In this document: positions 2,043 through 14,614 of the stretch, one piece after another
Position numbering within the stretch: the stretch's first letter is position 1
Layout of the letters: the number at the start of each line of letters is the position of its first letter
Assembly: GCA_934717895.1 (NCBI GenBank)
Contig: CAKUZO010000043.1
Location: forward strand, 1 to 14,614
Source of the DNA: an uncultured Candidatus Melainabacteria bacterium
GTDB taxonomy: Bacteria > Cyanobacteriota > Vampirovibrionia > Gastranaerophilales > Gastranaerophilaceae
Direction of reading: 5' to 3'
Length of the DNA: 14,614 nt
Position numbers and translations under genes: made by a program
The notes under the pieces: generated by a model
Seen by the model: the letters and a program-made list of their open reading frames with translations, nothing else
Database searches by the model: none
Told to the model about the DNA's origin: nothing

Positions 2043-2068
2043 AGAGAGATTAATCTTATCTCTCTTTT
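2043..2068 (+). terminator. Probable terminator downstream of the nuclease-like gene
   Basis: An 8-bp perfect stem, AGAGAGAT (2043-2050) with ATCTCTCT (2058-2065), closes a 7-base loop and runs into TTTT. It lies about 130 bp after the stop at 1910. A weaker AAAACAG/CTGTTTT hairpin (1963-1969 with 1993-1999) lies between. Either could end the plus-strand transcript. Confidence 0.55.
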
Positions 2069-2124
2069 GTGGGCTAAAAAATGGAGCAAACAGTCCGAAT
2101 AGCAACAGGCTCCCTGACTATATC

Positions 2125-2256
2125 AACCTGTTAACCTGATAAAATTTTTTAACCTGTTATTTTGCTATACAGTTAGTATATTAACTAGTTATATCAGACT
2201 TATTTGAATTTCAGAATTTATAAATAACAGGTTATTAACAGGGAGGTAACAGGTAA
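2125..2256. repeat. AACCTGTT/TAACAGG repeat cluster in a convergent intergenic gap
   Basis: The 379-bp gap between convergent genes (1911-2289) holds no convincing gene. On the left, AACCTG occurs at 2125, 2134 and 2151, twice followed by TTA. On the right, TAACAGG occurs at 2225, 2236 and 2247, exactly 11 bp apart. The two sides are inverted to each other: TAACCTGTTATTT (2150-2162) is the perfect reverse complement of AAATAACAGGTTA (2222-2234). The 11-bp phasing puts the right-hand copies on one face of the helix, as in iterons or regulator arrays. The rest of the gap (1911-2042) contains only the weak hairpin noted above. Function is unknown. Confidence 0.6.
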
Positions 2257-2289
2257 TTTTTTAGGTTAAAAAGATACGATGCAATTTTA

Positions 2290-4074
2290 TTAAAATTTCT
2301 TCAAACAATATTTGTTGTAAATATTTTCTAGTTCTAAATAATAGTTTTCTTTAAATTTTATATGTTTTTTATCGGATATTTTCCATTGAGTTATACATGT
2401 ATTTAGGCTATGTAATATTGAATCATTTTTAGAAATAAAAGTTATATCACAGTTGTTATTCTTTAGATTTAAAATAATATTCGAAATTAGTTCAGGATTA
2501 TCCTTAACCATATTTATTTCTGCTTGGGAATCAATACCTATTAGATTTTTGAGTATAATATATCTTACAATCATATTATGCAAAAAATCTTCATGCAAAA
2601 AGTATCTCATTGTTAAATAAAGTTCCATTAACGCTTTCCATATATTTTCAAAAAAAGTAGTTGCAGAATTTACTTGTTTTTTTGAAATAAAATATTCAAT
2701 AACAGCTATACCCGTTAAAATTAAATACTGCGAGTGTGATATGTTATGCATATTGTCCTCATAATTTGAATGCATAGCTTTTTGTCGTTCAATATATAAA
2801 GCATTCCATATTTTTTGCCATTCATCAGCAGGTTTATCAATTTCAATAAACAACTGCGATAATAAATAGTGTTCAGTTTTTATAAAAGACTTATCAGATG
2901 AAATATATATTTTATTTGATAAATCTAATATGTAATCTCTAAATAATTTCAAATATTCTAGAGGAAAATTCATAGAGTCAGTTGTATATATTAAGGCAAG
3001 TAATAGTTCTTTACGTTTATTACTCAAATATTCATTTTCAAAGAAATTTTTACTAAAACTTTTGTCTTGTTCTACAATTTCTAATCCGATTATTTGTATT
3101 GTCATTTGTGTTATTTTTTTGTAAGTTTCAGAACGCGAATCTAGGATTGAAACAAGATGCAATAACCATTTTTGGATGAAAAAATTACAATCAGGTCTTT
3201 GTTTTAATTGTTTAATGAATAATTCAATGTGTTTTTTTAATATATCATCAACTTCATGTGTGGTATTTTTATATAATTCACATACATGTATTAAATTATT
3301 ATTTAATATTATTGTAAGTAATGGTAATAAAATAGCTTTATTGTTCCATTTTTCACTATTATTTGTAATTTTTGGTGCCAGAGATAAAATCTTGCAGATC
3401 AGTTCTATATCGTATTCGATTGTATTAATAGTTAAAAAATCTTCCAACAAAAAAATGCAATTTATTTTAGATAGTATTTTTACCACTTTTTTAATATCTA
3501 AATTTAATATTGGAGTTAGTGCAAAATATAATACACCATTTGATATATATCTATAATGCATACGAGTTCTGTCATTTAGAATATTTAAAATATCTGAATT
3601 TTCTGCATTCTTTTTCAAAAATTCTTTGAATGCGGGCTTTTCATCTTCTCTGATATAATTCAAAAAAGTTTGGTTAGCATAATCAATAATACCATCAAGT
3701 TTATCAGTATATTTTTTTAATAATGTTTTATTTTGAAATTTTTCAGTCAATATTTTGCTATAAAAAAGATATGCATTAAGATGACTATAGCGATTAAACC
3801 ATTCAAAAAACTCAATAAATTGGCAATCGGTTTGTAAAACTTTATCAACACAAAAATTCCCCAATATGTACGATTTTATATTATCGCTCAATGTATATTC
3901 GTCAGATTTTTTAATAAATTCATTATATGAGTATTTTTTTTGAAATGCCAAATTACAAAACTCATAAAAAAAAGTTTTGGTTTTATCATCAAGTTGCAAA
4001 TATTCACTTACAGTAGTTTGATATATCTTTAATTGTTCTTTCATATATGGTGTTTGCATTTCTGTTTCTATCAT
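2290..4074 (-). CDS. Large unrecognised helical protein, last gene of the minus-strand block
   Basis: This is a 594-residue protein I cannot assign to a family. It looks almost entirely alpha-helical, rich in Leu, Ile, Lys and Asn, with no Walker motif, nuclease signature, signal peptide or clear membrane helix. Such composition is common in helical-repeat scaffolds and in sensor subunits of defence loci, but no repeat unit could be defined by eye. The start codon overlaps the stop of the preceding phospholipase D-like gene by four bases (ATGA, 4071-4074), and GAGAGGA sits just upstream, so translation is probably coupled. That coupling implies it works in stoichiometry with the two phospholipase D-like proteins. 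It is the promoter-distal gene, and the repeat cluster at 2125-2256 follows it. Confidence 0.85.
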   Translation of the reverse strand: MIETEMQTPYMKEQLKIYQTTVSEYLQLDDKTKTFFYEFCNLAFQKKYSYNEFIKKSDEYTLSDNIKSYILGNFCVDKVLQTDCQFIEFFEWFNRYSHLNAYLFYSKILTEKFQNKTLLKKYTDKLDGIIDYANQTFLNYIREDEKPAFKEFLKKNAENSDILNILNDRTRMHYRYISNGVLYFALTPILNLDIKKVVKILSKINCIFLLEDFLTINTIEYDIELICKILSLAPKITNNSEKWNNKAILLPLLTIILNNNLIHVCELYKNTTHEVDDILKKHIELFIKQLKQRPDCNFFIQKWLLHLVSILDSRSETYKKITQMTIQIIGLEIVEQDKSFSKNFFENEYLSNKRKELLLALIYTTDSMNFPLEYLKLFRDYILDLSNKIYISSDKSFIKTEHYLLSQLFIEIDKPADEWQKIWNALYIERQKAMHSNYEDNMHNISHSQYLILTGIAVIEYFISKKQVNSATTFFENIWKALMELYLTMRYFLHEDFLHNMIVRYIILKNLIGIDSQAEINMVKDNPELISNIILNLKNNNCDITFISKNDSILHSLNTCITQWKISDKKHIKFKENYYLELENIYNKYCLKKF

Positions 4075-4646
4075 AAAGTCCTCTCTGAAAATTTAGAATT
4101 TTCAATTTGTTTTATAAGCATGGATATCTTATTAGCATCCCATCCGCAACTAAATGCGCTAAAGCCTTCGCTGGTTTTTCCTCCGACAGTACATCCAAAA
4201 TGAAATAGTTCATTATCCAATATTGCAAATCTATCATGAATGTATTTGTGCTTTATTTCAAATACTGCAAATTTGTCAGCAAGAATACGTTTAATTTCAT
4301 TGAGAGAATTTTTAATATTATCTACATTTTCTGTATAAAGCTTAAACATTTTAAATGTTGGTATTTTGTTTTTATTTTTTTGCATAATTTTTATAACTTT
4401 ATCCAGATCTTCATTTATAAAAAATTTATCAATTATAATTATATATTCAGCTTTTTCAAAATTGTTCCAAAAAATACTACTATATAAATCATTTCTATCA
4501 AAACAGCAACCATTTACAATTTCAATATCTTTAGAGTCACGTTTCCCAGATTCATAATTTGCGGACAAAAAATATAACTTGGGTTCTTTATTCGCAAATT
4601 TTTCCGGAATTGGTACTTGGATAACATTATCAATTTGCGGTTTCAT
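4071..4646 (-). CDS. Small phospholipase D-like protein with one HxR active-site motif
   Basis: With the ATG at 4646 the protein has 191 residues; an in-frame TTG at 4655 would add three. A beta-strand stretch YIIIID (about 68-73) is followed near residue 137 by HDRFAILD, which keeps the spacing of the phospholipase D HxKxxxxD motif (H137, D144) but has Arg (R139) in place of Lys. A FGCTVGG segment follows at the position of the family's Gly-rich stretch. Phospholipase D enzymes need two such motifs to form an active site, so this single-motif protein must dimerise, either with itself or with its upstream neighbour, if it is active. It overlaps that neighbour by 17 bp and the downstream gene by 4 bp, so the three are almost certainly co-translated. 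The substrate cannot be read from sequence: nucleic acid or phospholipid are both possible. Confidence 0.8.
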   Translation of the reverse strand: MKPQIDNVIQVPIPEKFANKEPKLYFLSANYESGKRDSKDIEIVNGCCFDRNDLYSSIFWNNFEKAEYIIIIDKFFINEDLDKVIKIMQKNKNKIPTFKMFKLYTENVDNIKNSLNEIKRILADKFAVFEIKHKYIHDRFAILDNELFHFGCTVGGKTSEGFSAFSCGWDANKISMLIKQIENSKFSERTL

Positions 4647-6156
4647 GGTTCTCAATCCATTCTTTTAATGTTGTTATTTTTTGCTTGTCATTTATAATGC
4701 TATAATAAATATTTTGAATTTCTTTTGGTGCTGATGATTTAATCAGAATACTTGCTCTTTTGCCAATATCAGCCAACGAATTTCCACTAATCCAAACTTC
4801 TTCATCTATAAATATAAATCTATCATGAAAAGCTGGTTCTCTTCCAAGCATCACCATTGCTTCAATATGATAATTCTTTGACGCATTATCAATATTTTTC
4901 AACAAAGTTTTGGCTTGATTTTTATTTTTGCCGCCTTTTAATACCAAAGAAGAGGTTATTATTGTAGTTTTTACGCTTGGATTTACCGATAAAACAAATT
5001 TAAATAATTCTCTGGTCGTAATATAGGGATCGATTATAGTAATTCTTGTTTGAGCTTTGGCAATAATACTTCTAATAAATGCTGTTGCTTCTTTTGGGTT
5101 TTCATAAAATAGTTTTTGAGTATTTTGAGCTATATTTTTTTGCTCCCTTGTTCTTTTTGATTTTAATAATTTAATTGCTAATGTTTCTGTTTTTGTTTTA
5201 TTGTTTTCTCCAATTGTAATTGTTTCACTACTATATCTTGAAGTTTCATATGTTTCTTCGATACCATCATAATTTTTAGTTGGAACATTGATCTTATTTG
5301 TACCTGTTACAATATTCATACTCAAAGATAAACTTTTCATAAAACCATGAAAACCTTCCCATAATAATAGTCCTCTTTTTGGACAAATTACAGCATAACC
5401 AATAGCTTCAACTTCTCCTATGTTATCTATTATGAAATACAGATTATTTAATGCAACTTCTTTAAAGCATTTATATCCAAGATTCCGTTTTTCTATATAT
5501 AACAATTTTAAATCCGAAATATCAACATTGTATCTTGGTTCAATTTCAAATGACACAGATTCAGATTTGGCATTTGTGTTTGTAATAAGTTTTGTATTAA
5601 CACTTCTTAGTAACGGATTATATGCAACTAAACATATTGATCCAATGTACTCAGAATATAATGATAAATCAAACTTAAAGTTATCACTAATCCAATTAAT
5701 GTTTTCTTCATCAAGGCATAGTTGTCTTATTTCTTCTGGAAAATCTTTTTCAAATAAAAAATGACACCTTACACAACCTACGAAATCTTGTAAAAATGGA
5801 AGATTATTCGATAGTAAAAGATCTGGATAAGCAGGTTCTTGTTCATAGTTAATTAATTCAAAAGGTTCATTATTTTGCCAAAACATATGAGAAACATTCC
5901 CAGACGAAATATTACTATACCAATTTAAAATATTTTCAACTGTATCTATGATTCTTGCAAAAAATAAACGTTTATTTGTTTTCTTTACACTGTGGCTATT
6001 TTCTTGAATATTTATAGGTTTTGGATATTCATTGGGAAACAACTCAATAAATGCAAAAATTAATGTTCTTTTTCCATTATCATACAACCACAATATATTT
6101 AATGCAGCATACTTATAATCTTCTAGCAACATATTTGAACTTGTAAAAAAAGACAT
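4630..6156 (-). CDS. Phospholipase D-like protein with large N-terminal domain (possibly VPA1262-like)
   Basis: A 508-residue protein. The C-terminal third is phospholipase D-like: ITIIDPY (372-378) is the typical strand entering the fold, HDRFIFID (444-451) supplies H444, R446 and D451 in HxKxxxxD spacing with Arg for Lys, and SGNS (457-460) gives the downstream Gly/Asn. Only one such motif is present, so activity would require dimerisation. The first roughly 340 residues are a separate domain without a motif I can name; the overall architecture resembles what I remember of the VPA1262 family, a tentative match. AAGGAG five bases before the ATG supports the start. It begins 25 bp after the WYL regulator stop and overlaps the smaller phospholipase D-like gene, so it is probably an effector under that regulator's control. 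It is expected to be cytoplasmic. Confidence 0.85.
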   Translation of the reverse strand: MSFFTSSNMLLEDYKYAALNILWLYDNGKRTLIFAFIELFPNEYPKPINIQENSHSVKKTNKRLFFARIIDTVENILNWYSNISSGNVSHMFWQNNEPFELINYEQEPAYPDLLLSNNLPFLQDFVGCVRCHFLFEKDFPEEIRQLCLDEENINWISDNFKFDLSLYSEYIGSICLVAYNPLLRSVNTKLITNTNAKSESVSFEIEPRYNVDISDLKLLYIEKRNLGYKCFKEVALNNLYFIIDNIGEVEAIGYAVICPKRGLLLWEGFHGFMKSLSLSMNIVTGTNKINVPTKNYDGIEETYETSRYSSETITIGENNKTKTETLAIKLLKSKRTREQKNIAQNTQKLFYENPKEATAFIRSIIAKAQTRITIIDPYITTRELFKFVLSVNPSVKTTIITSSLVLKGGKNKNQAKTLLKNIDNASKNYHIEAMVMLGREPAFHDRFIFIDEEVWISGNSLADIGKRASILIKSSAPKEIQNIYYSIINDKQKITTLKEWIENHETAN

Positions 6157-6181
6157 AAAACTCCTTTTTTCTTATTATATA

Positions 6182-7156
6182 TCAAAATTGTTTATTCAAA
6201 ATACTTATTAAATAATCTTTATAGTACTTTCTAAGTTTCGTTGTTTTTTTGATTTTAACACTTGTTCCCCATTTGAAAAGTTCATGGCAGATGGCAAGTT
6301 TACCACCGGAGGTGAATTTTACTTGAATATTACCGTTATCAAGTTGTTTTATCTTTTGTGTCGGATGAAAATGATAATTCAAAACATCTTCTGCAACAGA
6401 TTTGTCAAATTCTAATGTAATGTTCATTGGTTCTTCCTGATAGATTGAAAAAGAATTATTACAATATTCTGATAATAAAAATTTTTCATCTTTTTCAAAA
6501 TAATCATCTGTTACAATAAGATTTTGAAGTTTATCCTCCTTGTAAAGCCTTAAATCGTTTACATATTCATTAAATCCAACAAGATAATATTTATCTGAAA
6601 TTATTACCCCATAAGGGTTTAATACGATATGGCGCAAGCCCTTATCTGTATTGTAATCAAATTCAACCTTTTTAAATGAAAGCATAGCTTGCCGGAGTTT
6701 ATCTAAAACCTTTTTATCTGCTTTAACTCTTGAATATTGGTGTACTGCAAAACCTTCGGATTCAAGTATTGCTTCAATATCTGTTTCCAGTGCCATTGCA
6801 TTTTTTTGCGGAGTTAAAGCTTTTATTTTGGCAATTAATTCATCAAGTTCTTTTTGCCTATTTTCATCGTTTGATAGCCCTTTTAAGTATTCAAGGTTCG
6901 CAAAATCATCAGGGGTAAATGAAATTAACATGTTGGCAGTTCCTTTAATAAATCGCCAGCGTTTTTTCTTATCAGAAGTTGAAACTTCTTCAACTTTTTC
7001 AGGAAACATTTCAAATAACAGCGACTTCATTCGTTCTGCTGATCTGCGGGAGCATTCAAAATGTTCTTGAATATCATCAATACACAACCCGCAATAACTA
7101 TTCTGAAACATCATTGCAAGTTCTATTATTTCTGCTGCTTTATTTAATCTGGACAT
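6182..7156 (-). CDS. WYL-domain transcriptional regulator
   Basis: A 324-residue protein with the three-part layout of WYL repressors. Residues about 5-70 form a winged helix-turn-helix, with the recognition region near DIQEHFECSRRSAERM. The WYL domain covers about 150-215, with KYYLVGF (189-195) at the signature position and an Arg-rich ligand pocket region (DLRLY). The C-terminal WCX region spans about 235-320. Members such as CapW and BrxR are repressors of phage-defence operons and respond to nucleic-acid-type signals; that is family knowledge. It sits in the middle of the minus-strand block, 25 bp from the genes on either side. A GTCA-N5-TGAC palindrome lies directly upstream of its start, and the same element lies at the promoter of the first gene of the block, so autoregulation plus control of the operon is likely. 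No Shine-Dalgarno is visible, so its own transcript may be leaderless. Confidence 0.93.
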   Translation of the reverse strand: MSRLNKAAEIIELAMMFQNSYCGLCIDDIQEHFECSRRSAERMKSLLFEMFPEKVEEVSTSDKKKRWRFIKGTANMLISFTPDDFANLEYLKGLSNDENRQKELDELIAKIKALTPQKNAMALETDIEAILESEGFAVHQYSRVKADKKVLDKLRQAMLSFKKVEFDYNTDKGLRHIVLNPYGVIISDKYYLVGFNEYVNDLRLYKEDKLQNLIVTDDYFEKDEKFLLSEYCNNSFSIYQEEPMNITLEFDKSVAEDVLNYHFHPTQKIKQLDNGNIQVKFTSGGKLAICHELFKWGTSVKIKKTTKLRKYYKDYLISILNKQF

Positions 7157-7164
7157 AATTTAAT

Positions 7165-7194
7165 TTTATAACAAAAATACGTCATTTTGTGACA
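7165..7194 (-). promoter_or_regulatory. WYL gene promoter with GTCA-N5-TGAC operator
   Basis: On the minus strand, TATAAA (7165-7170) lies eight bases before the WYL start codon, which implies a leaderless or nearly leaderless transcript. The -35 position is occupied by the palindrome TGTCA-CAAAA-TGACG (7180-7194; perfect core GTCA-N5-TGAC at 7181-7193). The palindrome overlaps the stop codon and last codons of the WG-repeat gene. The poor -35 match suggests weak internal transcription. Confidence 0.5.
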
Positions 7195-8813
7195 TAATTG
7201 TCAATATCGATTTTTAAAATTTCACCCTTTTTGTTTACATACATCCATTTATTATGAGTTATTGCAAGAGTATATTCCCTATCGTTAAAAGGCATTAAGA
7301 TGTCAAATTTAAAATCAATTAAAACTTCATTTTGAAGGTTAATTAATCCCCACTTCAATTTGCCATTGACCCGACTTCTGGCAGGAAGAGTATTATCTTT
7401 ATCTAAGCATTTATCACGCTTAAACCAATATTTAAAAGGAACTATAATATTTTCATTAACATCAATAATTCCTTCTTTTGAATCTTTATTTGCAACAAGC
7501 AGATTTTTATTTATAAAGAATAAATCATCATATTTAAAATCAATTTTGATATTGCCGAATTTATCAATTAAACCGTTTTTATCATTTTTCATAGCGCAAA
7601 AATATTCACCGTTTCCCTCGGAGTTTATAAATTGAAAGTCTTCGTCGCAAACTTTCTTATTTGAAAAATCAATTATATATCCCTTGTTAAAATTATGTAC
7701 AAACATTGTTTCATTAGAAAAAATCTCAATATGTTCGTATTCAAAAGGAATAAGGGTTTCATTTTTTGAGTTTATAACGCCACATTTGCCATTTTTTTGT
7801 GCCACAGCCAAACTTTTTGTAGTGTCAAAAAAGTTTGAGCATAAACAATCATATTCGAAAGGAATAATAACTTTACTCTCAAGGTTAATAACCCCTTCCT
7901 TACCTTCTTTTTCTACGATAAAGCCCTCGTTTTTTCTAAATGGCAGGGCATAGATATTAAAACTTTCATCGTAAATGAAAGGAACGATGATATTTTCATT
8001 AACGTTAATCAAACCCCATTTACCTTGATTTTTTGCACAAATATGTTCTTTATCTCCAAAAAACTTCATATTGTCATATTTAAAATCAATAATGGTTTTC
8101 CCACATTCATTAATCACTCCATATTTTTCATTTAATTTTGCTGTAAAAAAGGAACGGTTTTCACCAAATGTCTTTTTTAATTCTTCATATTTGGGAGAGA
8201 TTAAATAATTGCCGTAATTGTCTATAAGACCATATTTTTTATCAATTGAAATAATAATACAGTCTTTATCAACCCTTTCAAAATTATCGCATTTGATTTT
8301 TAAATGAACCTTGCCTTTTTCATCAAATTCATACCAATAACCATCGATTTTACCTGATGCCTTGCCATAAATAAAACCGTAATATCGCATGCCTTCTAAA
8401 ACCGGATGTGCAAGTTCTGATACATGAGAATATTCGGCATTATAATAATCATACAGCCCTATTAAAATTTTTGCTAAAATTATTTTAACAACGGTTTTAA
8501 CCCTTGCCCTGCTCACCATAAGAGTTTTAGAGATTTCTGATATATTTTTACCCTGCTTTATGAGGATGAAAAATTCTTCCTCTCTTTCTGTGAGTTTTGT
8601 ACCGTTTTGAATTTCACAAACAAGAGTTTCATTTTCTTTGATATTAAAATTATCAACCATAGTTTTAATTTCCGCTTTAGAAAGATTAATAATATCGGAT
8701 ATTTCTTTATTGGTTTTTCTATTAATTAATTCCAAAGTCCAAGCTATTGTGATATCTTCAAGATGTTTCCACTTCTCCCATTCTTTTAAAATGTATTCTG
8801 CAGTCTTGGACAT
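7182..8813 (-). CDS. WG-repeat protein with two N-terminal helix-turn-helix segments
   Basis: A 543-residue protein. Residues about 20-55 and 72-118 each look like a helix-turn-helix; the second (LTEREEEFFILIKQG, then ISEISKTLMVSRARVKTVV) resembles LuxR or sigma region 4 DNA-binding domains. From about 190 to the end come roughly nine WG (KWG) repeats of the form KxGxI(N/D)xxxxxxIxPFxYD, for example KWGLINVNENIIVPFIYDE and KWGLINLQNEVLIDFKFD. At least one copy is degenerate (KGYIIDFSNKKV) and the last is partial. WG repeats form beta-rich surfaces of poorly known function, probably protein binding. The combination suggests a DNA-bound sensor or adaptor. Its start overlaps the stop of the nuclease gene upstream by one base (TAATG), so translation is coupled. 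No membrane segment is seen. Confidence 0.88.
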   Translation of the reverse strand: MSKTAEYILKEWEKWKHLEDITIAWTLELINRKTNKEISDIINLSKAEIKTMVDNFNIKENETLVCEIQNGTKLTEREEEFFILIKQGKNISEISKTLMVSRARVKTVVKIILAKILIGLYDYYNAEYSHVSELAHPVLEGMRYYGFIYGKASGKIDGYWYEFDEKGKVHLKIKCDNFERVDKDCIIISIDKKYGLIDNYGNYLISPKYEELKKTFGENRSFFTAKLNEKYGVINECGKTIIDFKYDNMKFFGDKEHICAKNQGKWGLINVNENIIVPFIYDESFNIYALPFRKNEGFIVEKEGKEGVINLESKVIIPFEYDCLCSNFFDTTKSLAVAQKNGKCGVINSKNETLIPFEYEHIEIFSNETMFVHNFNKGYIIDFSNKKVCDEDFQFINSEGNGEYFCAMKNDKNGLIDKFGNIKIDFKYDDLFFINKNLLVANKDSKEGIIDVNENIIVPFKYWFKRDKCLDKDNTLPARSRVNGKLKWGLINLQNEVLIDFKFDILMPFNDREYTLAITHNKWMYVNKKGEILKIDIDNYVTK

Positions 8814-9913
8814 TACATTTGACCATTTACTTTAAGTTGTTCAATTATCCAATCAACACATTCTTTAACTTTATTATTAAAACTATTTTCTTTTACAAGT
8901 TCAAAGATTGTATCATCGGATATCGAAAACACCTTTTCTTTAAATTTGTTTTTTGAAAATGAATTATTCCAAGATAAATCATTGGGATTCAAAACTTGAA
9001 TCAGCTTAAATACGCTATTATTTTCCAAACTGATACGTGCCACATCTACCTGGGATTTATCTTCTGATAAAGATAATTTATATCCAAGATTCCATTCATT
9101 ATCATCTTGACTGTTATCATCAAACGGTTTTATTTTTGTAAGTTCTTCTTCAAGTTTTTCTTTAAATCGGCTTAATAAAGTATTTTTTAGTGCCTGTGCG
9201 ATACTGTAAGCATTTTCAATATCGTTTTGTGTTTTTAATAAATTTTCAATTTCCATTAGTTCGCCTTTCTTTGTTTGTAATGTAAACTCTTCTATTGCTG
9301 TTTCAAATTGCAATAAAATTTCTCTGATAGGTGCTTTGTTTATGGTTGCTTTATCAGATATGCAAGCTCTTATCCAGTTTAATATATCCACATTCCAAGA
9401 TATGAGACCAATTTCTTCATCTTTTAAACTCTCTCTGCTTCCCATAGATGGTTCTGTTCCATATTTTGTAAGATAATATACTTTAGGATTTTCGTCATTT
9501 GGTTTTCTTTTCTTTGAATAATCGTATAATTGTTTCGATTGGTCGCAGGCATTTATTTTAACCTCTATAGGAATTACAAAATCTTTTGTTCTGTCTTTTA
9601 TGAGTATGTCAATTCTTCGACAACCTTCAATTACTTCTTCTCTTATAACCTCTAGTTCTGATAATGGAATATCCTTTTTTAAAACTATTTTGAAAAATAA
9701 ATTTAAATATATTTTATTCTGACCATGAGAACCGTTTGGGTCTAAAAGTTCGGTTAAAATTCTGCACATTGGGACTTCTTTTTGACTAATATGTGTAATT
9801 TCAAATATATTAAAATTATTACCTGTTTCTTTTGCAATTGTTTCTTTTATAGTTTTCTGTTTAATTGTAATTTCGTTTACATCATTCAGTAATTTTTCAA
9901 TTTTTTCTATCAT
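8813..9913 (-). CDS. PD-(D/E)XK nuclease family protein (PDDEXK_4-like)
   Basis: A 366-residue protein whose N-terminal half matches the PDDEXK_4 (PF14281) pattern: NIFEITHIS (35-43), then EVPMCRILTELLDPNGSHG (46-64), then RRIDILI with D102, then IPIEVKI with E117 and K119, then Q125/Q128. This is a complete nuclease core. The C-terminal half (about 200-366) is helical then mixed and probably holds the partner or substrate-binding part. The start is supported by GGAG seven bases upstream. It is the second gene of the block, 57 bp after the SMC-like ATPase, and overlaps the WG-repeat gene. Members of this family are frequent in defence islands, but their targets are mostly unknown. It could be activated by the neighbouring ATPase, by analogy with SMC-plus-nuclease systems such as Lamassu; that is inference. 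Confidence 0.9.
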   Translation of the reverse strand: MIEKIEKLLNDVNEITIKQKTIKETIAKETGNNFNIFEITHISQKEVPMCRILTELLDPNGSHGQNKIYLNLFFKIVLKKDIPLSELEVIREEVIEGCRRIDILIKDRTKDFVIPIEVKINACDQSKQLYDYSKKRKPNDENPKVYYLTKYGTEPSMGSRESLKDEEIGLISWNVDILNWIRACISDKATINKAPIREILLQFETAIEEFTLQTKKGELMEIENLLKTQNDIENAYSIAQALKNTLLSRFKEKLEEELTKIKPFDDNSQDDNEWNLGYKLSLSEDKSQVDVARISLENNSVFKLIQVLNPNDLSWNNSFSKNKFKEKVFSISDDTIFELVKENSFNNKVKECVDWIIEQLKVNGQM

Positions 9914-9970
9914 ATTTTACTCCATTTATATAAGTTGTGTTTCTTTGATTTCAGATTGATTTTTAATTTT

Positions 9971-10468
9971 TTAATTTACTGTAATAATCTGATCTGCATA
10001 ATCTAGCATACTTGTTTCGGTGCTTACCAAAATAATTTGTTTCTTATTTGATTCTTCTTTCAGATTTTTTATAAAATCTTTTAATTTTGTGCTATCAAAT
10101 TGATTATGAGAATTTGAATCTAAAAGTACAAAATCAAAATCTTCATAAGGAATATCGTTATCATTTGCCGGTTTTCCATTTATACATAATGATTTTTTGC
10201 CATTAATATCAATTGTTTTAAAAATTGATATCAAATTCCCATTTCCATCTATCAAAACAATTTTAACAGATGCCTCTGTTTCGCTTTCGTGTATCAAATA
10301 TTCAGTTTTTGCCTCATATTTCCCTAAGGCAAAATTAATTCCATCGATTATATTGCTTTTTCCTGTGCCATTTAAGCCTGTAATTACTGTTAATCCTGAG
10401 TCGAAAGAAATTGTGCATTTACCTTTAAAGGATTTAAAATTGTTTAATTCTAAAAATTTAATTTTCAT
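9971..10468 (-). CDS. Miniature SMC/RecF-like ATPase without coiled coil or hinge
   Basis: Only 165 residues. The N-terminus is a textbook SMC/RecF start: FLELNNFKSFKG, then Walker A GLNGTGKS (31-38), then IDGINFALG. The C-terminus resembles the end of an SMC head: FVLLDSNS (113-120) in the Walker B/D-loop position, then IILVST (145-150) and ADQIITV, as in the SMC switch region. Between them are only about 60 residues of beta-rich sequence, so the coiled-coil arms, hinge and LSGG signature are all missing. Walker B has Ser where the catalytic Glu is expected (LLDS rather than LLDE), which suggests ATP binding without efficient hydrolysis. The start is supported by AAGGA about eight bases upstream. 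It is the first gene after the operon promoter. It is an intact reading frame with its own start and stop, so it is more likely a compact family than a decayed SMC, although decay cannot be excluded. Confidence 0.85.
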   Translation of the reverse strand: MKIKFLELNNFKSFKGKCTISFDSGLTVITGLNGTGKSNIIDGINFALGKYEAKTEYLIHESETEASVKIVLIDGNGNLISIFKTIDINGKKSLCINGKPANDNDIPYEDFDFVLLDSNSHNQFDSTKLKDFIKNLKEESNKKQIILVSTETSMLDYADQIITVN

Positions 10469-10511
10469 TTTTATATTTCCTTAACCATTGTAGTGTCTAT
10501 GTTTATTCTTA

Positions 10512-10549
10512 AATATGAGTTTAACACAGCACCCCGTCAATTTATGACG
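10512..10549 (-). promoter_or_regulatory. Main promoter of the minus-strand block with overlapping operator
   Basis: Read on the minus strand, TTGACG (-35, complement of 10535-10540), 17 bp, CATATT (-10, complement of 10512-10517) is a good sigma-70 promoter, 44 bp from the ATPase start. The -35 is embedded in the perfect palindrome CGTCA-N5-TGACG (10535-10549). A protein bound there would block RNA polymerase. The same GTCA-N5-TGAC element lies in front of the WYL gene. Confidence 0.65.
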
Positions 10550-10566
10550 TAACAATTTCTTTTCAT

Positions 10567-10581
10567 TAGACTGTAAGTCTA
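10567..10581. promoter_or_regulatory. Palindrome TAGACT-GTA-AGTCTA ahead of the XRE gene
   Basis: A perfect 15-bp inverted repeat lies 34 bp before the XRE start, in the 147-bp divergent region shared with the ATPase operon. Small XRE regulators typically bind such short palindromes at their own promoter. A CATAAT at 10604-10609 could be the -10 for the XRE gene, with no good -35. Autoregulation is inferred. Confidence 0.4.
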
Positions 10582-10615
10582 TACGGTTGTACATTCATAA
10601 TAGCATAATTAAAGA

Positions 10616-10828
10616 ATGAATAGCAGTGTTATCAGAAATTTTGCAACAAAAGTACAACAAATAAGACTTGCTAAAAAACTTACAAAAGGTAAGGTCGCAG
10701 AGCTAGCCGGATTAGATATTTCATATATTGGTAAAATTGAGCGAAATGAAAAAATTCCAAACTTAAGAACAATAGTAAAACTTGCTGATGCCCTTGAAGT
10801 TCAGGTCAAAGAATTGTTTGATTTTTGA
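10616..10828 (+). CDS. Small XRE-family helix-turn-helix regulator
   Basis: This 70-residue protein is essentially one HTH_3 (Cro/CI-type) domain: IRLAKKLTKGKVAELAGLD, then ISYIGKIERNEKIPNL, then LADALEVQVKELF. The SYIGKIERNEKIP segment holds the recognition helix and the conserved Glu-Arg that follows it. It has no dimerisation or ligand domain beyond that, as in controller (C) proteins of restriction systems and small phage repressors. It is transcribed divergently from the seven-gene block and converges on the zinc-ribbon gene, with only five bases between the two stop codons. No strong Shine-Dalgarno is seen (AAAG is close to the ATG). Likely targets are its own palindrome at 10567-10581 and perhaps the divergent operon promoter. 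Confidence 0.93.
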   Translation: MNSSVIRNFATKVQQIRLAKKLTKGKVAELAGLDISYIGKIERNEKIPNLRTIVKLADALEVQVKELFDF

Positions 10829-10833
10829 TGCTG

Positions 10834-11259
10834 TTATTTATTATCAAATGATTTTGCAATAATGATGTTATTATTTTCCAAATAAATACTTAATTTCGGC
10901 GTTAAATTTTTTAATTTGTTGCTGCCAATATAATCCAAAGCTAAAGTCATATTATCAAGTTCTTTTTTATCTGATTCTTTTATAGAGAATAATTTTTGAA
11001 ATTTTATAGGTTCTCCATATTTTGGAGCATTATTTATTTCTGAATAATTTGTTTTTATAAGTTTCAAAATATGAACCATAAATAGTTTGTCTGCTTTATT
11101 TTTAAAATAATAATTCTTATTTTTTTTAAACGTCTTTTTACAGTTTTTACATTTGTATCTTGGTGTTTTTTCAGTAGTTGAATCATATCCATTAACAACT
11201 ATATCTGTTTTACCACAATAAGGACATTTCTCTGGTTTGGTGTTATTCTTTTCTTTCAT
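10834..11259 (-). CDS. Zinc-ribbon protein of unknown function
   Basis: A 141-residue protein with an N-terminal CPYCGKTDIVVNG and YKCKNCKKTFKK pair, placing C12, C15, C37 and C40 to bind zinc. This type of ribbon is typical of the N-terminus of IS1 InsA and related transposases, but the remaining hundred residues show no DDE catalytic domain and match nothing I know. The protein is Lys- and Asn-rich and probably cytoplasmic and nucleic-acid binding. Its promoter puts the transcription start at or next to the ATG, and no Shine-Dalgarno is present, so a leaderless mRNA is likely. It may be a fragment of a transposase-like gene or an independent small regulator. Confidence 0.75.
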   Translation of the reverse strand: MKEKNNTKPEKCPYCGKTDIVVNGYDSTTEKTPRYKCKNCKKTFKKNKNYYFKNKADKLFMVHILKLIKTNYSEINNAPKYGEPIKFQKLFSIKESDKKELDNMTLALDYIGSNKLKNLTPKLSIYLENNNIIIAKSFDNK

Positions 11260-11265
11260 ATTCTA

Positions 11266-11294
11266 ATTATAACATCTTTCAAGATTTATCACAA
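11266..11294 (-). promoter_or_regulatory. Promoter of the zinc-ribbon gene (leaderless)
   Basis: On the minus strand, TTGTGA (complement of 11289-11294), exactly 17 bp, consensus TATAAT (complement of 11266-11271). The expected transcription start, about seven bases on, coincides with the A of the ATG at 11259. ATCAC/GTGAT repeats overlap and flank the -35. Confidence 0.65.
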
Positions 11295-11308
11295 ATTTAT
11301 AATTTTTC

Positions 11309-11335
11309 GTGATAGTAAATCACCTAAAGCGCTTT
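11309..11335. promoter_or_regulatory. Palindromes in the divergent zinc-ribbon/methyltransferase region
   Basis: GTGAT-AGTAA-ATCAC (11309-11323) is a perfect 5-N5-5 palindrome, and AAAGCGCTTT (11326-11335) is a perfect 10-bp palindrome right beside it. A third ATCAC at 11288-11292 overlaps the -35 of the zinc-ribbon promoter and is inverted to GTGAT at 11309. They are likely operators for one or both divergent genes. Confidence 0.4.
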
Positions 11336-11389
11336 GATAGTAAGAGTTATAGTCATTTTTGTCTTAAGCAAAAACTTCTTTCTAGTTTA

Positions 11390-11423
11390 TTCCGGCAGCA
11401 AAAAGTTAGAGAACCTGCCGGAA
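11390..11423 (+). promoter_or_regulatory. GC-rich leader hairpin next to the methyltransferase ribosome binding site
   Basis: A perfect 9-bp inverted repeat, TTCCGGCAG (11390-11398) with CTGCCGGAA (11415-11423), has a 16-base loop. It stands out as GC-rich in very AT-rich surroundings. Its right arm runs into the Shine-Dalgarno GAAAGGA (11421-11427) of the methyltransferase gene. As RNA it could limit ribosome access; as DNA it could be an operator. Confidence 0.5.
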
Positions 11424-11433
11424 AGGACAAAAA

Positions 11434-12726
11434 ATGAATACGGAAAAAATTTGTAACCCACTTATTTTGAGAATTGAAGTAGAAAAACTTAAAGAACCCG
11501 AAAGAAAATTACGAAAGCACAAGCCCGAGAAAATCAAAAAACTTGCAAGACTTATCAAAGAAAATGGTATTTTTATCCCTATTGTAATTGACAAGAAACA
11601 AAAAATTGTAACCGGTTACGCAAGGTATCTTGCAGCTAAAGAATTGGGGCTTGAAAAAGTTCCCGCTATTGATGCCTCTCATCTTACAGCAGAACAGCTA
11701 AGAGCCTATTCTATAGCTGATAACAAGATGACAGAAACTGCCAAGTGGGATATTGATGCCTTGAAGTTTGAATTTAAAGAATTGCAGGAATTGGATTTTG
11801 ACTTAAGTCTTACTGCTTTTGAAATTCCTGAGATTGACTTTATAATTCAAGATTCTAAGAAAAATAATAAAAATGAATCCATAGAAACAATACCGGATGA
11901 TCTTAATATTGAAAAACGTGTAAATACCGGAGATATATGGCAGCTTGGTAAACATCGTTTATTATGTGGAAATGCTTTAGATATTCAGAATTACGGATTA
12001 TTACTCAAAGATATCAGACCGGTAATGGTTTTAACTGACCCTCCCTATAATCTTGCTGTTAAAAATATATGCGGCAATGGAAAAATTCAACATAAGGAAT
12101 TTGCAATGGCAAGCGGAGAAATGTCATCTGAGGAATTTACTGGGTTTCTTGGTGCTATTTTTAATAATCTGATGCAATATACGATAGATGGCTCTTTGCA
12201 TTATATATTTATGGACTGGAGGCATGTGTTAGAAATTTTAACCGCCGGCAAATGTTATTCTGAATTTAAAAATTTGTGTGTTTGGAACAAAATGGTTGGC
12301 GGACAAGGCTCTTTTTACAGAAGTCAGCATGAATTAGTATTTGTGTTTAAAAACGGCGTGGTCAAATATATAAATAATATCCAACTTGGTAAATTTGGTC
12401 GCTATAGAACTAATGTATGGGATTTTAAGGGGGTTCATGTTTCAAATCCTGAAAATAAAGATGATTTAAAATTTCATCCAACTTGTAAACCTGTAAAAAT
12501 GCTGGAAGAAGTTATTTTAGATGCAAGCAATCCGGATGATGCTGTACTTGACTGTTTTGCAGGTTCAGGCTCCACTCTTTTAGCTTGTGAGAATACAAAC
12601 CGGGTTTGTTATGCGATTGAACTTGAACCTAATTATTGCGATGTAATACTTCATCGCTTTGAACAATTAACTGGAGAAAAAGTGCAACTAGTAAGCACTT
12701 TAGAGGAAAATAAAGGAGGACAATAA
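11434..12726 (+). CDS. ParB-like domain fused to beta-class DNA adenine/cytosine-N4 methyltransferase
   Basis: The 430-residue protein has two parts. Residues about 8-105 are a ParB/Srx-like N-terminal domain (LARLIKENGIFIPIVID, then VTGYARYLAAKELG). Residues about 160-415 are an amino-group DNA methyltransferase: catalytic motif IV is DPPYN (202-206) and the S-adenosylmethionine motif I is FAGSGS (375-380), preceded by FHPTCKPVKML. Motif IV before motif I defines the beta class, which methylates adenine N6 or cytosine N4. Such ParB-methyltransferase fusions are common in prophages and integrated elements and usually act as orphan modifiers that protect the element DNA. AAAGGA seven bases upstream supports the start, and a strong hairpin overlaps that site. 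The DUF5681 gene starts two bases after its stop, so the two are co-translated. The recognition sequence cannot be predicted. Confidence 0.95.
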   Translation: MNTEKICNPLILRIEVEKLKEPERKLRKHKPEKIKKLARLIKENGIFIPIVIDKKQKIVTGYARYLAAKELGLEKVPAIDASHLTAEQLRAYSIADNKMTETAKWDIDALKFEFKELQELDFDLSLTAFEIPEIDFIIQDSKKNNKNESIETIPDDLNIEKRVNTGDIWQLGKHRLLCGNALDIQNYGLLLKDIRPVMVLTDPPYNLAVKNICGNGKIQHKEFAMASGEMSSEEFTGFLGAIFNNLMQYTIDGSLHYIFMDWRHVLEILTAGKCYSEFKNLCVWNKMVGGQGSFYRSQHELVFVFKNGVVKYINNIQLGKFGRYRTNVWDFKGVHVSNPENKDDLKFHPTCKPVKMLEEVILDASNPDDAVLDCFAGSGSTLLACENTNRVCYAIELEPNYCDVILHRFEQLTGEKVQLVSTLEENKGGQ

Positions 12727-12728
12727 TT

Positions 12729-13223
12729 ATGGGTATTTTTGACAAATACGAAAACATTCAGGATGTAATTGATGAGGCTATAAAAACCTATCATCCTGAA
12801 GGTAACAGGGATTATAAAACAGGACAATTTATTAAAGGTAAGTCCGGAAATCCAAAAGGACGTCCAAAAAGGAATTTAAAAACAAGACCAAATGAATGTC
12901 TAAACAAAATTTTGAGTCAATTTGTAGAAACAACAATTAATGGTAAACATAAAAAGATTACTTGTTTGGAGGTTTTGATTCACAAATTGGTTAGTGAAAT
13001 TATAAAAGGTGATGATACAAAATTACTTTTACAATTTTTAAAGATTTTTAGATCTGATATAGATATTCAGCATGAATTAGAAACTCGTCTAAAACCTAAA
13101 AACGAAGGACCTGATGTTCCCGGATATATAATTCAGTCACAATTAACCCAATTACTAGACATACTTAATGGTATTGATAGAACCAGTAATATTCCAAAAG
13201 AATATATTGTAGAAGATAAATAA
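12729..13223 (+). CDS. DUF5681 domain protein
   Basis: A 164-residue protein with the DUF5681 hallmark at residues 32-49: GQFIKGKSGNPKGRPKRN, a basic Gly-rich stretch. The remainder is helical with no enzymatic motif. In phages and integrated elements, DUF5681 genes are regularly found next to ParB-fused methyltransferases, sometimes in the position of a small terminase-like DNA-binding protein; the function is not established. AAAGGAGG nine bases before the ATG supports the start. It is the last gene of a two-gene unit that ends at the strong hairpin terminator at 13231-13269. Confidence 0.85.
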   Translation: MGIFDKYENIQDVIDEAIKTYHPEGNRDYKTGQFIKGKSGNPKGRPKRNLKTRPNECLNKILSQFVETTINGKHKKITCLEVLIHKLVSEIIKGDDTKLLLQFLKIFRSDIDIQHELETRLKPKNEGPDVPGYIIQSQLTQLLDILNGIDRTSNIPKEYIVEDK

Positions 13224-13230
13224 TTCAAGG

Positions 13231-13269
13231 ATATGGGGCAAGGTAAAAATCACTTTGTCCCATATTTTT
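13231..13269 (+). terminator. Strong Rho-independent terminator after the DUF5681 gene
   Basis: Left arm ATATGGGGCAAGG (13231-13243) pairs with CTTTGTCCCATAT (13253-13265) over 13 positions, including two G-T pairs, with a 9-base loop and a TTTTT tail. It begins 7 bp after the stop codon and separates the methyltransferase unit from the recombinase unit. Confidence 0.85.
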
Positions 13270-13358
13270 AACCTTGACTATTATTTAAATCAGAGTTTGA
13301 ATGCAATACGACTTAAAATGACATACTTATATGTAAAAATAAATAACGGAGGCATATT

Positions 13359-13790
13359 ATGTCAGAACATCATTGGTATAAATTAAGAAAAAGACTTGAA
13401 AACATTATACACCCAAGCCTTAATTTGTCCTTCATTTACATTCCTTTAAGCAAAAAGACTCAATGGAGTGAAATTACAGTAAGATTTTTTCAAATAAAAT
13501 TTGATAATGAGATTATTTGGGCATTTCCTAAAAATACAAATCAAAATATTGACCAAGGCTTTATTCACGGATGGAGTAATAAAACAAATGAGTGCATAGA
13601 GTTTCCCATTCAATCAATAATTAAATACCTTGATTTGCCAAGGCAGGAATTAATAAAATATCAGGATAATGCCGGATTAGCCGATATTTTAAAGGCTATG
13701 GACAGAAGAATAAGCCCAAAGCGTTTAAAAGAATTAGAATTGTCGCCTGCTGCAAAACAAGTATTAAATAAACGGCTATCTTTAAAATGA
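13359..13790 (+). CDS. SF0329-like protein of unknown function
   Basis: A 143-residue protein. An N-terminal WYKLRKRLENIIHPSL (6-21) and a C-terminal AMDRRISPKRLKEL (113-126) match my memory of the SF0329 family, whose members begin with a W-x-x-L-K-x-x-x-E segment and carry a LDRRxGKRRL-type motif near the end. The middle looks beta-rich. No enzymatic residues stand out and no function is known. It is preceded by GGAGG seven bases before the ATG and by TTGACT (13274-13279), a plausible -35 without a clear -10. Its stop overlaps a possible start of the next frame (ATGA, 13787-13790). It leads a DUF2924-recombinase unit, so it probably belongs to the mobile element. Confidence 0.75.
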   Translation: MSEHHWYKLRKRLENIIHPSLNLSFIYIPLSKKTQWSEITVRFFQIKFDNEIIWAFPKNTNQNIDQGFIHGWSNKTNECIEFPIQSIIKYLDLPRQELIKYQDNAGLADILKAMDRRISPKRLKELELSPAAKQVLNKRLSLK

Positions 13791-13855
13791 TAATTTCTGT
13801 GTCTTTTTTGCATTTAGACTTGATTTCGCTTGCGACAAGAGCGATTAATGTAAGT

Positions 13856-14260
13856 ATGGATAACTTAAAAACACTAACAACAAAGGAATTACAATCAAAA
13901 TGGCAAGAAATCTTTAAAATACCTGCACCAAAAGGTTATACTAAGTCATTCTTAATCAAAGAGATAGAATGGTATTATAAATACAGAAAATTATCAGGCG
14001 AACTTCAAAAAAGATTGGATAAACTTGTCGAACACTATTCAGAAACAAAAACCATAGATACCAAGAAAATCAAAAAATTTGAGGTAACTATCGGTACTAA
14101 ATTTATTCGTGAGTTTAAAGGTGAAAAATATGAAGTTATCGCAGTCAATGGAGGGTTTATTTTTAATGGTAAATTATACAAAACCCTTTCCGCTGTTGCA
14201 AATGTAATAACCGGCACACATTGGAATGGTAAAAAGTTTTTTGGAGTTGCAAATGGATAA
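13856..14260 (+). CDS. DUF2924 family protein, recombinase-associated
   Basis: From the ATG at 13856 the protein has 134 residues. The N-terminal helical part (LTTKELQSKWQEIF, residues 7-20, then YTKSFLIKEIEWYY) and the C-terminal beta part (GTKFIREFKGEKYEV, then LSAVANVITGTHWNG, 111-125) together fit the DUF2924 family. DUF2924 genes are characteristically found directly upstream of large serine recombinases and may assist them; the mechanism is unknown. An in-frame ATG at 13787 overlaps the upstream stop and would add 23 hydrophobic residues that do not fit the family. Neither start has a good Shine-Dalgarno, so coupling from the upstream gene could favour the longer form. The stop overlaps the recombinase start by eight bases. 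Confidence 0.85.
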   Translation: MDNLKTLTTKELQSKWQEIFKIPAPKGYTKSFLIKEIEWYYKYRKLSGELQKRLDKLVEHYSETKTIDTKKIKKFEVTIGTKFIREFKGEKYEVIAVNGGFIFNGKLYKTLSAVANVITGTHWNGKKFFGVANG

Positions 14261-14614
14261 AAAGAAAGTGCGTTGTGCCATATACACCCGCAAATCATCA
14301 GAAGAAGGGCTGGAACAAGATTTCAATTCGCTTGATGCACAACGTGAAGCCTGTGAGGCTTACATAAAATCTCAAATGCACGAGGGTTGGGTTTTGTTAG
14401 ATAAACAGTATAATGATGGTGGATATTCAGGCGGGACAATGGAGCGACCCGCATTTAAAGAACTTTTGAAAGATATAGAAAACGATGAAGTTGATATTGT
14501 AGTTGTTTATAAAGTCGACCGTTTAACTCGTTCGCTTATGGATTTTTCAAAGATTATTGATGTATTTGACAGGCATGAAACTTCTTTTGTATCTATAACT
14601 CAACAGTTTAATAC
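14253..14614 (+). CDS. Large serine recombinase, N-terminal catalytic part (cut by window end)
   Basis: The frame opens at ATG 14253 and runs off the window after 120 codons. It has the resolvase catalytic fold: AIYTRKSS with the nucleophile Ser15 (Y-x-R-x-S), then LDAQREACEAYI, then YNDGGYSGG, then VVVYKVDRLTRS with the catalytic Arg residues. The spacing and the DGGYSGGTMERPAF segment are those of large serine integrases rather than short invertases, so a recombinase/zinc-ribbon C-terminal region should follow outside the window. It overlaps the DUF2924 gene by eight bases, indicating coupled translation. It would cut and rejoin DNA at attachment sites to integrate or excise the element carrying these genes. 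Confidence 0.93.
   Translation, partial: MDKKKVRCAIYTRKSSEEGLEQDFNSLDAQREACEAYIKSQMHEGWVLLDKQYNDGGYSGGTMERPAFKELLKDIENDEVDIVVVYKVDRLTRSLMDFSKIIDVFDRHETSFVSITQQFN

Follow-up and report, generated by a model that had tools for sequence, protein, structure and literature searches.

A candidate WYL-switched nuclease cassette with exchangeable three-gene cargo on a Melainabacteria mobile element

The DNA analysed here, referred to throughout as the window, is a 14,614-nucleotide stretch from an uncultured Candidatus Melainabacteria bacterium (contig CAKUZO010000043.1, assembly GCA_934717895.1) in which seven minus-strand open reading frames (ORFs), henceforth g1 to g7, span positions 2290–10468. 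As judged by co-occurrence across genomes, the locus joins two independent modules. Module N is predicted to comprise a PDDEXK_4 nuclease (g2), a pair formed by a mini-SMC protein and a helix-turn-helix (HTH) protein (g1 and g3), and a regulator resembling the Caulobacter protein DriD (g4). Module V, which is placed 25 bp behind g4, consists of a VPA1262/phospholipase D (PLD) protein (g5), a PLD-like protein (g6) and an alpha-solenoid protein (g7). The locus is probably a nuclease cassette borne on a mobile element, switched by the WYL-domain regulator g4 and carrying exchangeable cargo, here module V. Both modules look from their sequences like anti-virus weapons, from which we infer a role in defence.

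Two modules with separate distributions

The ORF listing bore out the original prediction of seven genes in one orientation with gaps of 57 bp (g1–g2), 25 bp (g3–g4) and 25 bp (g4–g5) and overlaps elsewhere (1, 26 and 4 bases at g2–g3, g5–g6 and g6–g7, respectively), and the domains it had named (mini-SMC, PDDEXK_4, HTH-WG, WYL, two PLD-like and one helical protein) held in profile searches (Table 1). All measurable ratios of nonsynonymous to synonymous substitution (dN/dS) were below 1, so the seven genes look real. g6 showed no synonymous change, and the g2 value of 0.70 against G001, the closest genome compared, is based on few changes.

The original prediction treated the seven genes as one operon encoding one system. 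Joint action of all seven products as a single defence system would be consistent with the tight spacing, the single orientation and the presence of all seven genes, under purifying selection, in three elements at two divergence levels. However, all seven are recognisable only in the window and in two Melainabacteria relatives, G001 and L010; in L010 g1 is interrupted by a stop, g6 is an ORF of just 104 aa, and an additional gene of 162 aa separates g2 from g3. g5 is present in 2 of 240 genomes of the class; in a draw of the same size, g4 at an identity of at least 68% occupies 21 places in 20 genomes, and g5 is absent at 19 of these places. Narrow profiles built for g2, for g3 and for the lineage of g4 found no match in 30 module V loci outside the Melainabacteria, some of them with short flanks. 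In the same loci the g1 profile found one weak generic ATPase, and of 76 neighbours scanned with the PADLOC WYL profile one matched; this tally took 76 of the 136 listed module V neighbours, plus g4, and gives families rather than the members matched. A single seven-gene system was therefore rejected on co-occurrence, the full set being found in three elements only, and joint action of all seven components is very improbable.

Synonymous divergence (dS) points the same way. Between the window and L010 it is 0.55 for g5, 0.51 for g7 and 0.76 for g3, and 1.41 for g2 and 1.22 for g4, both near saturation; the comparison with G001 gives 0.01 for g2 as against 0.15 for g1 and 0.14 for g3. These unequal values indicate separate histories for the parts. 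The original prediction had also considered two neighbouring modules with a shared regulator, and this proved largely right. Its grouping of the WYL gene with the PLD and helical genes did not survive: the g4-lineage profile found no WYL gene in the 30 loci above, and the regulator belongs with the nuclease side. The search for the gene set in other genomes that it had proposed showed that the seven do not travel together and that g5-g6-g7 form a conserved and widespread unit. Word-limited protein searches gave 81 clusters of 101–200 aa for g1 (E 1e-8) and at least 12 clusters for g7 (E 1e-5).

Within module V, g7 adjoins g5 in 33 of 36 g5 loci from several phyla, and 24 of these 33 loci also carry g6, in one case (L020) as a fusion with g7. 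On these counts g5 and g7 are conserved together, with g6 as a frequent companion. The g5 counts exclude L001–L003, which duplicate L011, and L035, in which g5 is cut at a contig edge; most of the 79 candidate loci, being PLD-only relatives, did not enter the g5 count, and one (H3) of seven plasmid matches was left out. An unbiased draw from one phylum yielded the VPA1262 family (NF040700) in 5 of 398 genomes, seed included; three of these, with the seed, have g7 beside g5, and two hold other subfamilies without g7. The family members at L204 and L207 belong to other subfamilies lacking g7, one lying within a 1103-aa ORF and one being followed by a 479-aa gene. At two Magnetospirillum loci (L012 and L013) g5 is preceded, at a distance of 10 bp, by an MkoC-like helicase. 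No g5 was found in phage records by tblastn or in viral contigs by a pattern scan reaching close relatives only, and the Klebsiella copy had no match in E. coli genomes at megablast level.

g5 scores 180.6 bits against NF040700 (cut-off 80), its PLD part matches the PLD end of MkoC (9.3e-6), and the PADLOC PLD-like profile PDC-S05 matches both g5 and g6. The C-terminus of g5 has the PLD fold without the catalytic motif HxKxxxxD; HDRFxxxD, with Arg replacing Lys, stands in all 28 g5 rows. The N-terminal part is beta-rich. For g7, no family was found in Pfam, PADLOC or NCBIfam, and fold searches gave generic helical-repeat matches, with none at E 0.001 or better in Foldseek. Sequence profiles found no solved relative of g5 and none below E 0.06 for g7.

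In module N, g1 consists of an SMC N-lobe with Walker A (residues 1–106) running directly into an SMC Walker-B/H-like stretch (~113–164). The coiled coil, signature region and hinge are missing, and the Walker-B Asp is followed by Ser in place of the Glu of SMC proteins, so that only Walker A and a Walker-B-like stretch remain of an SMC ATPase. A mad3 profile match, among the best 25 of 132 g1 matches, covers the generic ATPase N-lobe; MADS was rejected as an identity for the locus, g1 alone among the seven matching a mad profile. g1 is fused to a g3-type HTH in two nearly identical proteins (L107 and L189), and at L179 a 62% g1 homologue stands directly before the WYL gene. P-loop proteins of only 91–102 aa in which both ends of g1 are retained, with Walker A followed by the Walker-B/H-like stretch, were noted at L111 (13977–14285), L183 (7225–7503) and L186 (1251–1526). 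g2 matches PDDEXK_4 with 100.5 bits (cut-off 22.3) and PADLOC PDC-S26 at 2.1e-57, with no solved relative by sequence. The HTH of g3 is weakly of GerE type (22.8 bits, cut-off 23.5), and stand-alone HTH proteins of the g3 type follow g2 homologues in L105, L108, L109 and L112.

Of the 21 close g4 homologues, 18 have a PDDEXK_4 gene no more than ~6 kb away in their own gene run; it is not always adjacent, and at G224 it is downstream. The three places without one are G280 and G256, which lie at contig ends with no upstream sequence, and G107, which has a GIY-YIG nuclease. Of 25 PDDEXK_4 matches across the whole of those 20 genomes, 24 sit at g4 places, one of them scoring under the Pfam threshold. 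By this measure the g4 lineage is tied to PDDEXK_4 genes and not to PLD genes; WYL paralogues of 45–49% identity (L192–L195) have no g2-type neighbour by profile. When ten hand-picked proteins were scanned, defence-like cargo was recognised behind g4 at four of the 19 places that lack g5: a PD-Lambda-5-like methyltransferase with an AAA protein (L113), DUF262/HEC-05 (L114), a Mokosh-like helicase (L183) and a PDC-M62 pair (L186). Where no cargo was recognised, element genes or unknown genes follow, as scanned in part.

The DriD-like regulator and its predicted operators

The best solved relative of g4 is DriD, with whose chains it aligns over residues 3–305 (E 6e-33). g4 follows the DriD domain order of winged helix-turn-helix (wHTH), three-helix linker, WYL and WCX; its WYL match is 1e-7 and its WCX match falls just under the cut-off. 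According to PMC12340889, DriD is an activator that binds single-stranded DNA (ssDNA) in its WYL domain and docks over the -35 position at the site ATACGAC-N7-GTCGTAT.

From a scan with the DriD half-site came the relaxed pattern TAYGNC-N7-GNCRTA, which gave 38 sites in 22 g4 loci (378,359 bases) against 0.30 expected; 35 of the 38 precede an ORF start by no more than 200 bp, and 17 of the 22 loci carry at least one. In 11 control loci (212 kb) there are four sites, one for each of the four loci with WYL paralogues, and none in the remaining seven; nine further loci (181 kb) have one. Counting each distinct gene-linked site once gives 38, the four of the paralogue loci L192–L195 among them; in 27 of these 38, TANNNT starts exactly at +10 from the end of the operator, compared with a mean of 2.0 per offset. 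Counted by downstream gene family, TANNNT stands at +10 in 10 of 16 and at no other offset in more than 4. A -10 element at this fixed offset puts the operator centre near -31, covering the -35 position. DriD-type operators, predicted on this basis, precede genes of the cassette, most of them with a -10 at a fixed offset. In each paralogue locus the one site has the exact DriD core, TACGAC-N7-GTCGTA, and stands before the WYL gene or a neighbour.

By sequence alone, the sites in the window are of this DriD type and position, with A and T swapped relative to the DriD core at the fifth base of one or both half-sites. The full unit at P2 (7163–7196) has no mismatch and ends 6 bases before the g4 start; transcription starting there would give a nearly leaderless g4. 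Because P2 sits just before g4, it lies upstream of g4-g5-g6-g7, and the short spacing behind g4 means that module V could be read from the same promoter. The composite unit at P3 (13307–13340) has one mismatch. Composite sites in the window exceed expectation at up to one mismatch (3 hits at 2 sites, compared with a mean of 0.05 in shuffles) and at up to two (5 hits at 3 sites, compared with 0.85). Generic sigma-70 promoter-like sites are at chance level in the window (64 found, 64.5 expected), and a terminator scan found a single terminator-like site, outside the intergenic spaces of the seven genes.

The operator position bears on the direction of control. g4 could instead be a repressor that covers the -35 and is released on binding ssDNA or another ligand. 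Its position over the -35 would suit this, and BrxR and CapW are repressors. WYL regulators co-localise with diverse defence systems, according to PMC9122601. However, the best solved relative over residues 3–305 is an activator, and on visual reading the operators hold no remaining -35 consensus, as expected for activator-dependent promoters. We regard repression as improbable.

Several observations weigh against a WYL-switched cassette with working cargo. The operator pattern was settled on the very loci in which it was counted, and 5 of the 22 g4 loci lack an exact site. Those loci are related by descent, so the sites are not independent, a problem that the family count answers only partly; 6 of the 16 downstream families, including that of the SF0329 gene in the window, have no -10 at +10. 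G269, with a 74% g4, has no operator site in its whole genome, and the bare pattern is not enriched genome-wide (0–16 per genome, compared with 3–19 for the reversed control). With up to three mismatches allowed, the window holds about as many composite sites as chance predicts (11, against an expected 9.6). No operator stands directly before g5, leaving module V without one of its own, and an operator over the -35 would suit a repressor too. Viewed from the nuclease, the tie to WYL is looser: a g4-type WYL lies near 9 of 15 g2-type places, one of the nine being a fragment at a contig end (G041), and L105, L107, L108, L109, L112 and L116 lack one in the 20-kb stretches examined. As to function, g5 and g6 may be catalytically dead, because Arg stands for Lys in the PLD motif, and g1 and g6 are possibly non-essential, because g1 is broken and g6 reduced in L010.

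The mobile element and a proposed mode of action

The adjoining mobile-element module named in the original prediction was recovered, with Xre, ParB-methyltransferase, DUF5681, DUF2924 and serine recombinase genes (Table 1). G001, a Melainabacteria metagenome-assembled genome (contig CASLVD010000002.1), matches window positions 2082–13061 at 97.6%, its contig starting at the right end of the match. Similarity to the window ends at ~2082 both in G001 and in the third copy (L010/L106), which places the left end of the element there. A tRNA-Gln (4–78) and the gene at 480–1910 fall outside it. No convincing direct-repeat att core was found in L106.

Operators also precede element genes, including those for a DnaB-like helicase (L117, with the same family at L185), an SF0329-like protein (window, L106 and L180) and others, and the related elements L104, L113, L188 and L190 carry phage terminase large subunits, which makes the element family look phage-satellite-like. 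The strongest rival explanation builds on both observations: the WYL regulon would be the induction switch of a phage-satellite-like element, phage ssDNA would induce its replication, packaging and nuclease genes, and host protection would be a by-product. Against this stand the lack of a terminase-like gene between recombinase and cargo in the window-type element and the defence-like cargo behind g4 at the four other places where cargo was recognised. We consider this explanation unlikely, though less so than repression.

For the preferred reading, a cassette switched by g4 with module V as its cargo, the following mode of action is proposed. The locus would be cargo carried by a mobile element that has a serine recombinase and whose relatives are phage-satellite-like. 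ssDNA arising from phage infection or replication stress would bind the WYL domain of g4, which would then sit on operators centred near -31, over the -35, and activate g1-g3 and g4-g7. The PDDEXK_4 nuclease and the g5/g6 PLD pair would in turn cut phage or cell nucleic acid; g5 and g6 possibly share an active site made of two halves and held by the g7 solenoid, and g1 is probably an ATP-binding switch for the g3 HTH rather than a DNA motor. More tentatively, satellite-like elements of the Melainabacteria may possess an infection-inducible 'armoury slot' in which an ssDNA-sensing activator of DriD type, using a promoter layout of its own with the operator over the -35 and the -10 at a constant distance, switches on upstream nucleases together with an inserted defence module, the cargo here being, as part of that proposal, a previously undescribed three-gene PLD/alpha-solenoid system. 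If true, a sensor of DNA-damage type, an ssDNA-bound WYL activator, would be wired by dedicated operators to a slot for exchangeable cargo, giving a testable regulatory logic by which mobile elements keep and swap weapons. The analysis also defines a three-gene module (VPA1262/PLD, PLD and alpha-solenoid) that occurs in several bacterial phyla and carries no name in the open-licence literature searched, and a mini-SMC family in which the P-loop is kept and the rest of the SMC machine is gone.

Table 1 Features of the window, with positions, strand and assignment.
Feature	Position	Strand	Description
g1	9971-10468	-	165 aa; mini-SMC P-loop protein; SMC_N 1.8e-21
g2	8813-9913	-	366 aa; PD-(D/E)XK_4 nuclease family; PDDEXK_4 1.4e-28; PADLOC PDC-S26
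g3	7182-8813	-	543 aa; N-terminal HTH (residues ~1-124) and seven WG repeats
g4	6182-7156	-	324 aa; DriD-like WYL regulator: wHTH, helical linker, WYL, WCX
g5	4630-6156	-	508 aa; VPA1262 family 4.8e-53; beta-rich N-terminal part, C-terminal PLD fold (residues 337-508)
g6	4071-4655	-	194 aa, TTG start; small PLD-like protein, IHDRFAILD...HFGCTVGG
g7	2290-4074	-	594 aa; alpha-solenoid protein, no family match
P1, degenerate WYL-type operator	10533-10551	-	TACGTC-N7-GACGGG; TAAACT 10518-10523; before g1; two-mismatch unit 10518-10551
P2, predicted WYL-type operator	7178-7196	-	TATGTC-N7-GACGTA; -10 TAAAAT 7163-7168; just before g4
P3, predicted WYL-type operator	13307-13325	+	TACGAC-N7-GACATA; before SF0329-like gene; no TANNNT at +10
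Divergent Xre-type HTH regulator	10616-10828	+	70 aa; recurs next to nuclease cassette
Mobile-element genes	11434-14612	+	ParB-methyltransferase, DUF5681, SF0329-like, DUF2924, serine recombinase (open at window end)
Element left terminus	2060-2100		similarity common to three copies ends at ~2082

Further features were observed around the element. Near its left end (2100–2270) are several direct and inverted CCTGTTA/AACAGG words, largely kept in the three copies and possibly recombinase sites. A zinc-ribbon protein is encoded on the minus strand upstream of the seven genes. The palindrome GTATAGACTTACAGTCTAAT lies at 10565–10584, before g1, and 10 of 20 regions upstream of cassettes contain the 8-mer GTATAGAC; the two are a candidate operator of the Xre gene. 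In related elements, an RtcB-type RNA ligase (L188, 14593–15714) lies between the nuclease cassette and the terminase gene, and a 170-aa protein with a GTPase domain of the tubulin/FtsZ family (L110, 4992–5504) is encoded directly upstream of the element's WYL gene. Beyond the element, the 476-aa protein of 480–1910 matches NucS_C weakly (E 0.03) and contains a D...EIK stretch close to its end, which we take, as a candidate only, to suggest a PD-(D/E)XK-like fold.

Comparison with known systems

The original prediction recognised no named system with this gene set, and none was found in the open-licence literature searched. Pfam, PADLOC and NCBIfam match parts only, and assignment to a named defence system was rejected; in particular, the PADLOC search, a check proposed at the outset, returned matches to parts and no whole system. 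Those parts relate to PDC-S26, PDC-S05, the VPA1262 family, a Mokosh-like PLD and DriD. The same literature gave nothing on PDC-S26, on PDDEXK_4 with WYL in defence, on phospholipase D with WG repeats in antiphage activity or on antiphage activity in Gastranaerophilales; PDC-S05 does occur there, as does, in a review, Mokosh with phospholipase D and a helicase. The parts thus appear to be of known kinds, while the three-gene module and the operator-wired slot had no counterpart found there.

g5 is a member of the VPA1262 family by score, and the family also holds subfamilies without g7; the literature consulted, in which VPA1262 appears in work on Vibrio parahaemolyticus, was not found to describe a function for it. 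Mokosh consists of MkoA, MkoB and MkoC, combining a helicase with a PLD. The PLD part of g5 resembles the PLD end of MkoC, but the seven genes include no helicase and have g6 and g7 in addition. g2 is similar to PDC-S26, and g5 and g6 to the PLD part of PDC-S05; by name these are single-gene candidates, whereas here their relatives lie in multi-gene modules. g1 shares the N-lobe and a Walker-B-like stretch with cellular SMC proteins but, at 165 aa, lacks their hinge, coiled coil, signature and catalytic Glu. Unlike DriD, g4 is encoded on a mobile element, with nuclease and cargo genes as neighbours; sequence identity between the two is low and ssDNA binding by g4 is presumed. The likeness to DriD lies in the domain order over residues 3–305, in a similar wHTH recognition region and in an operator built, as for DriD, as an inverted repeat with a 7-bp spacer over the -35.

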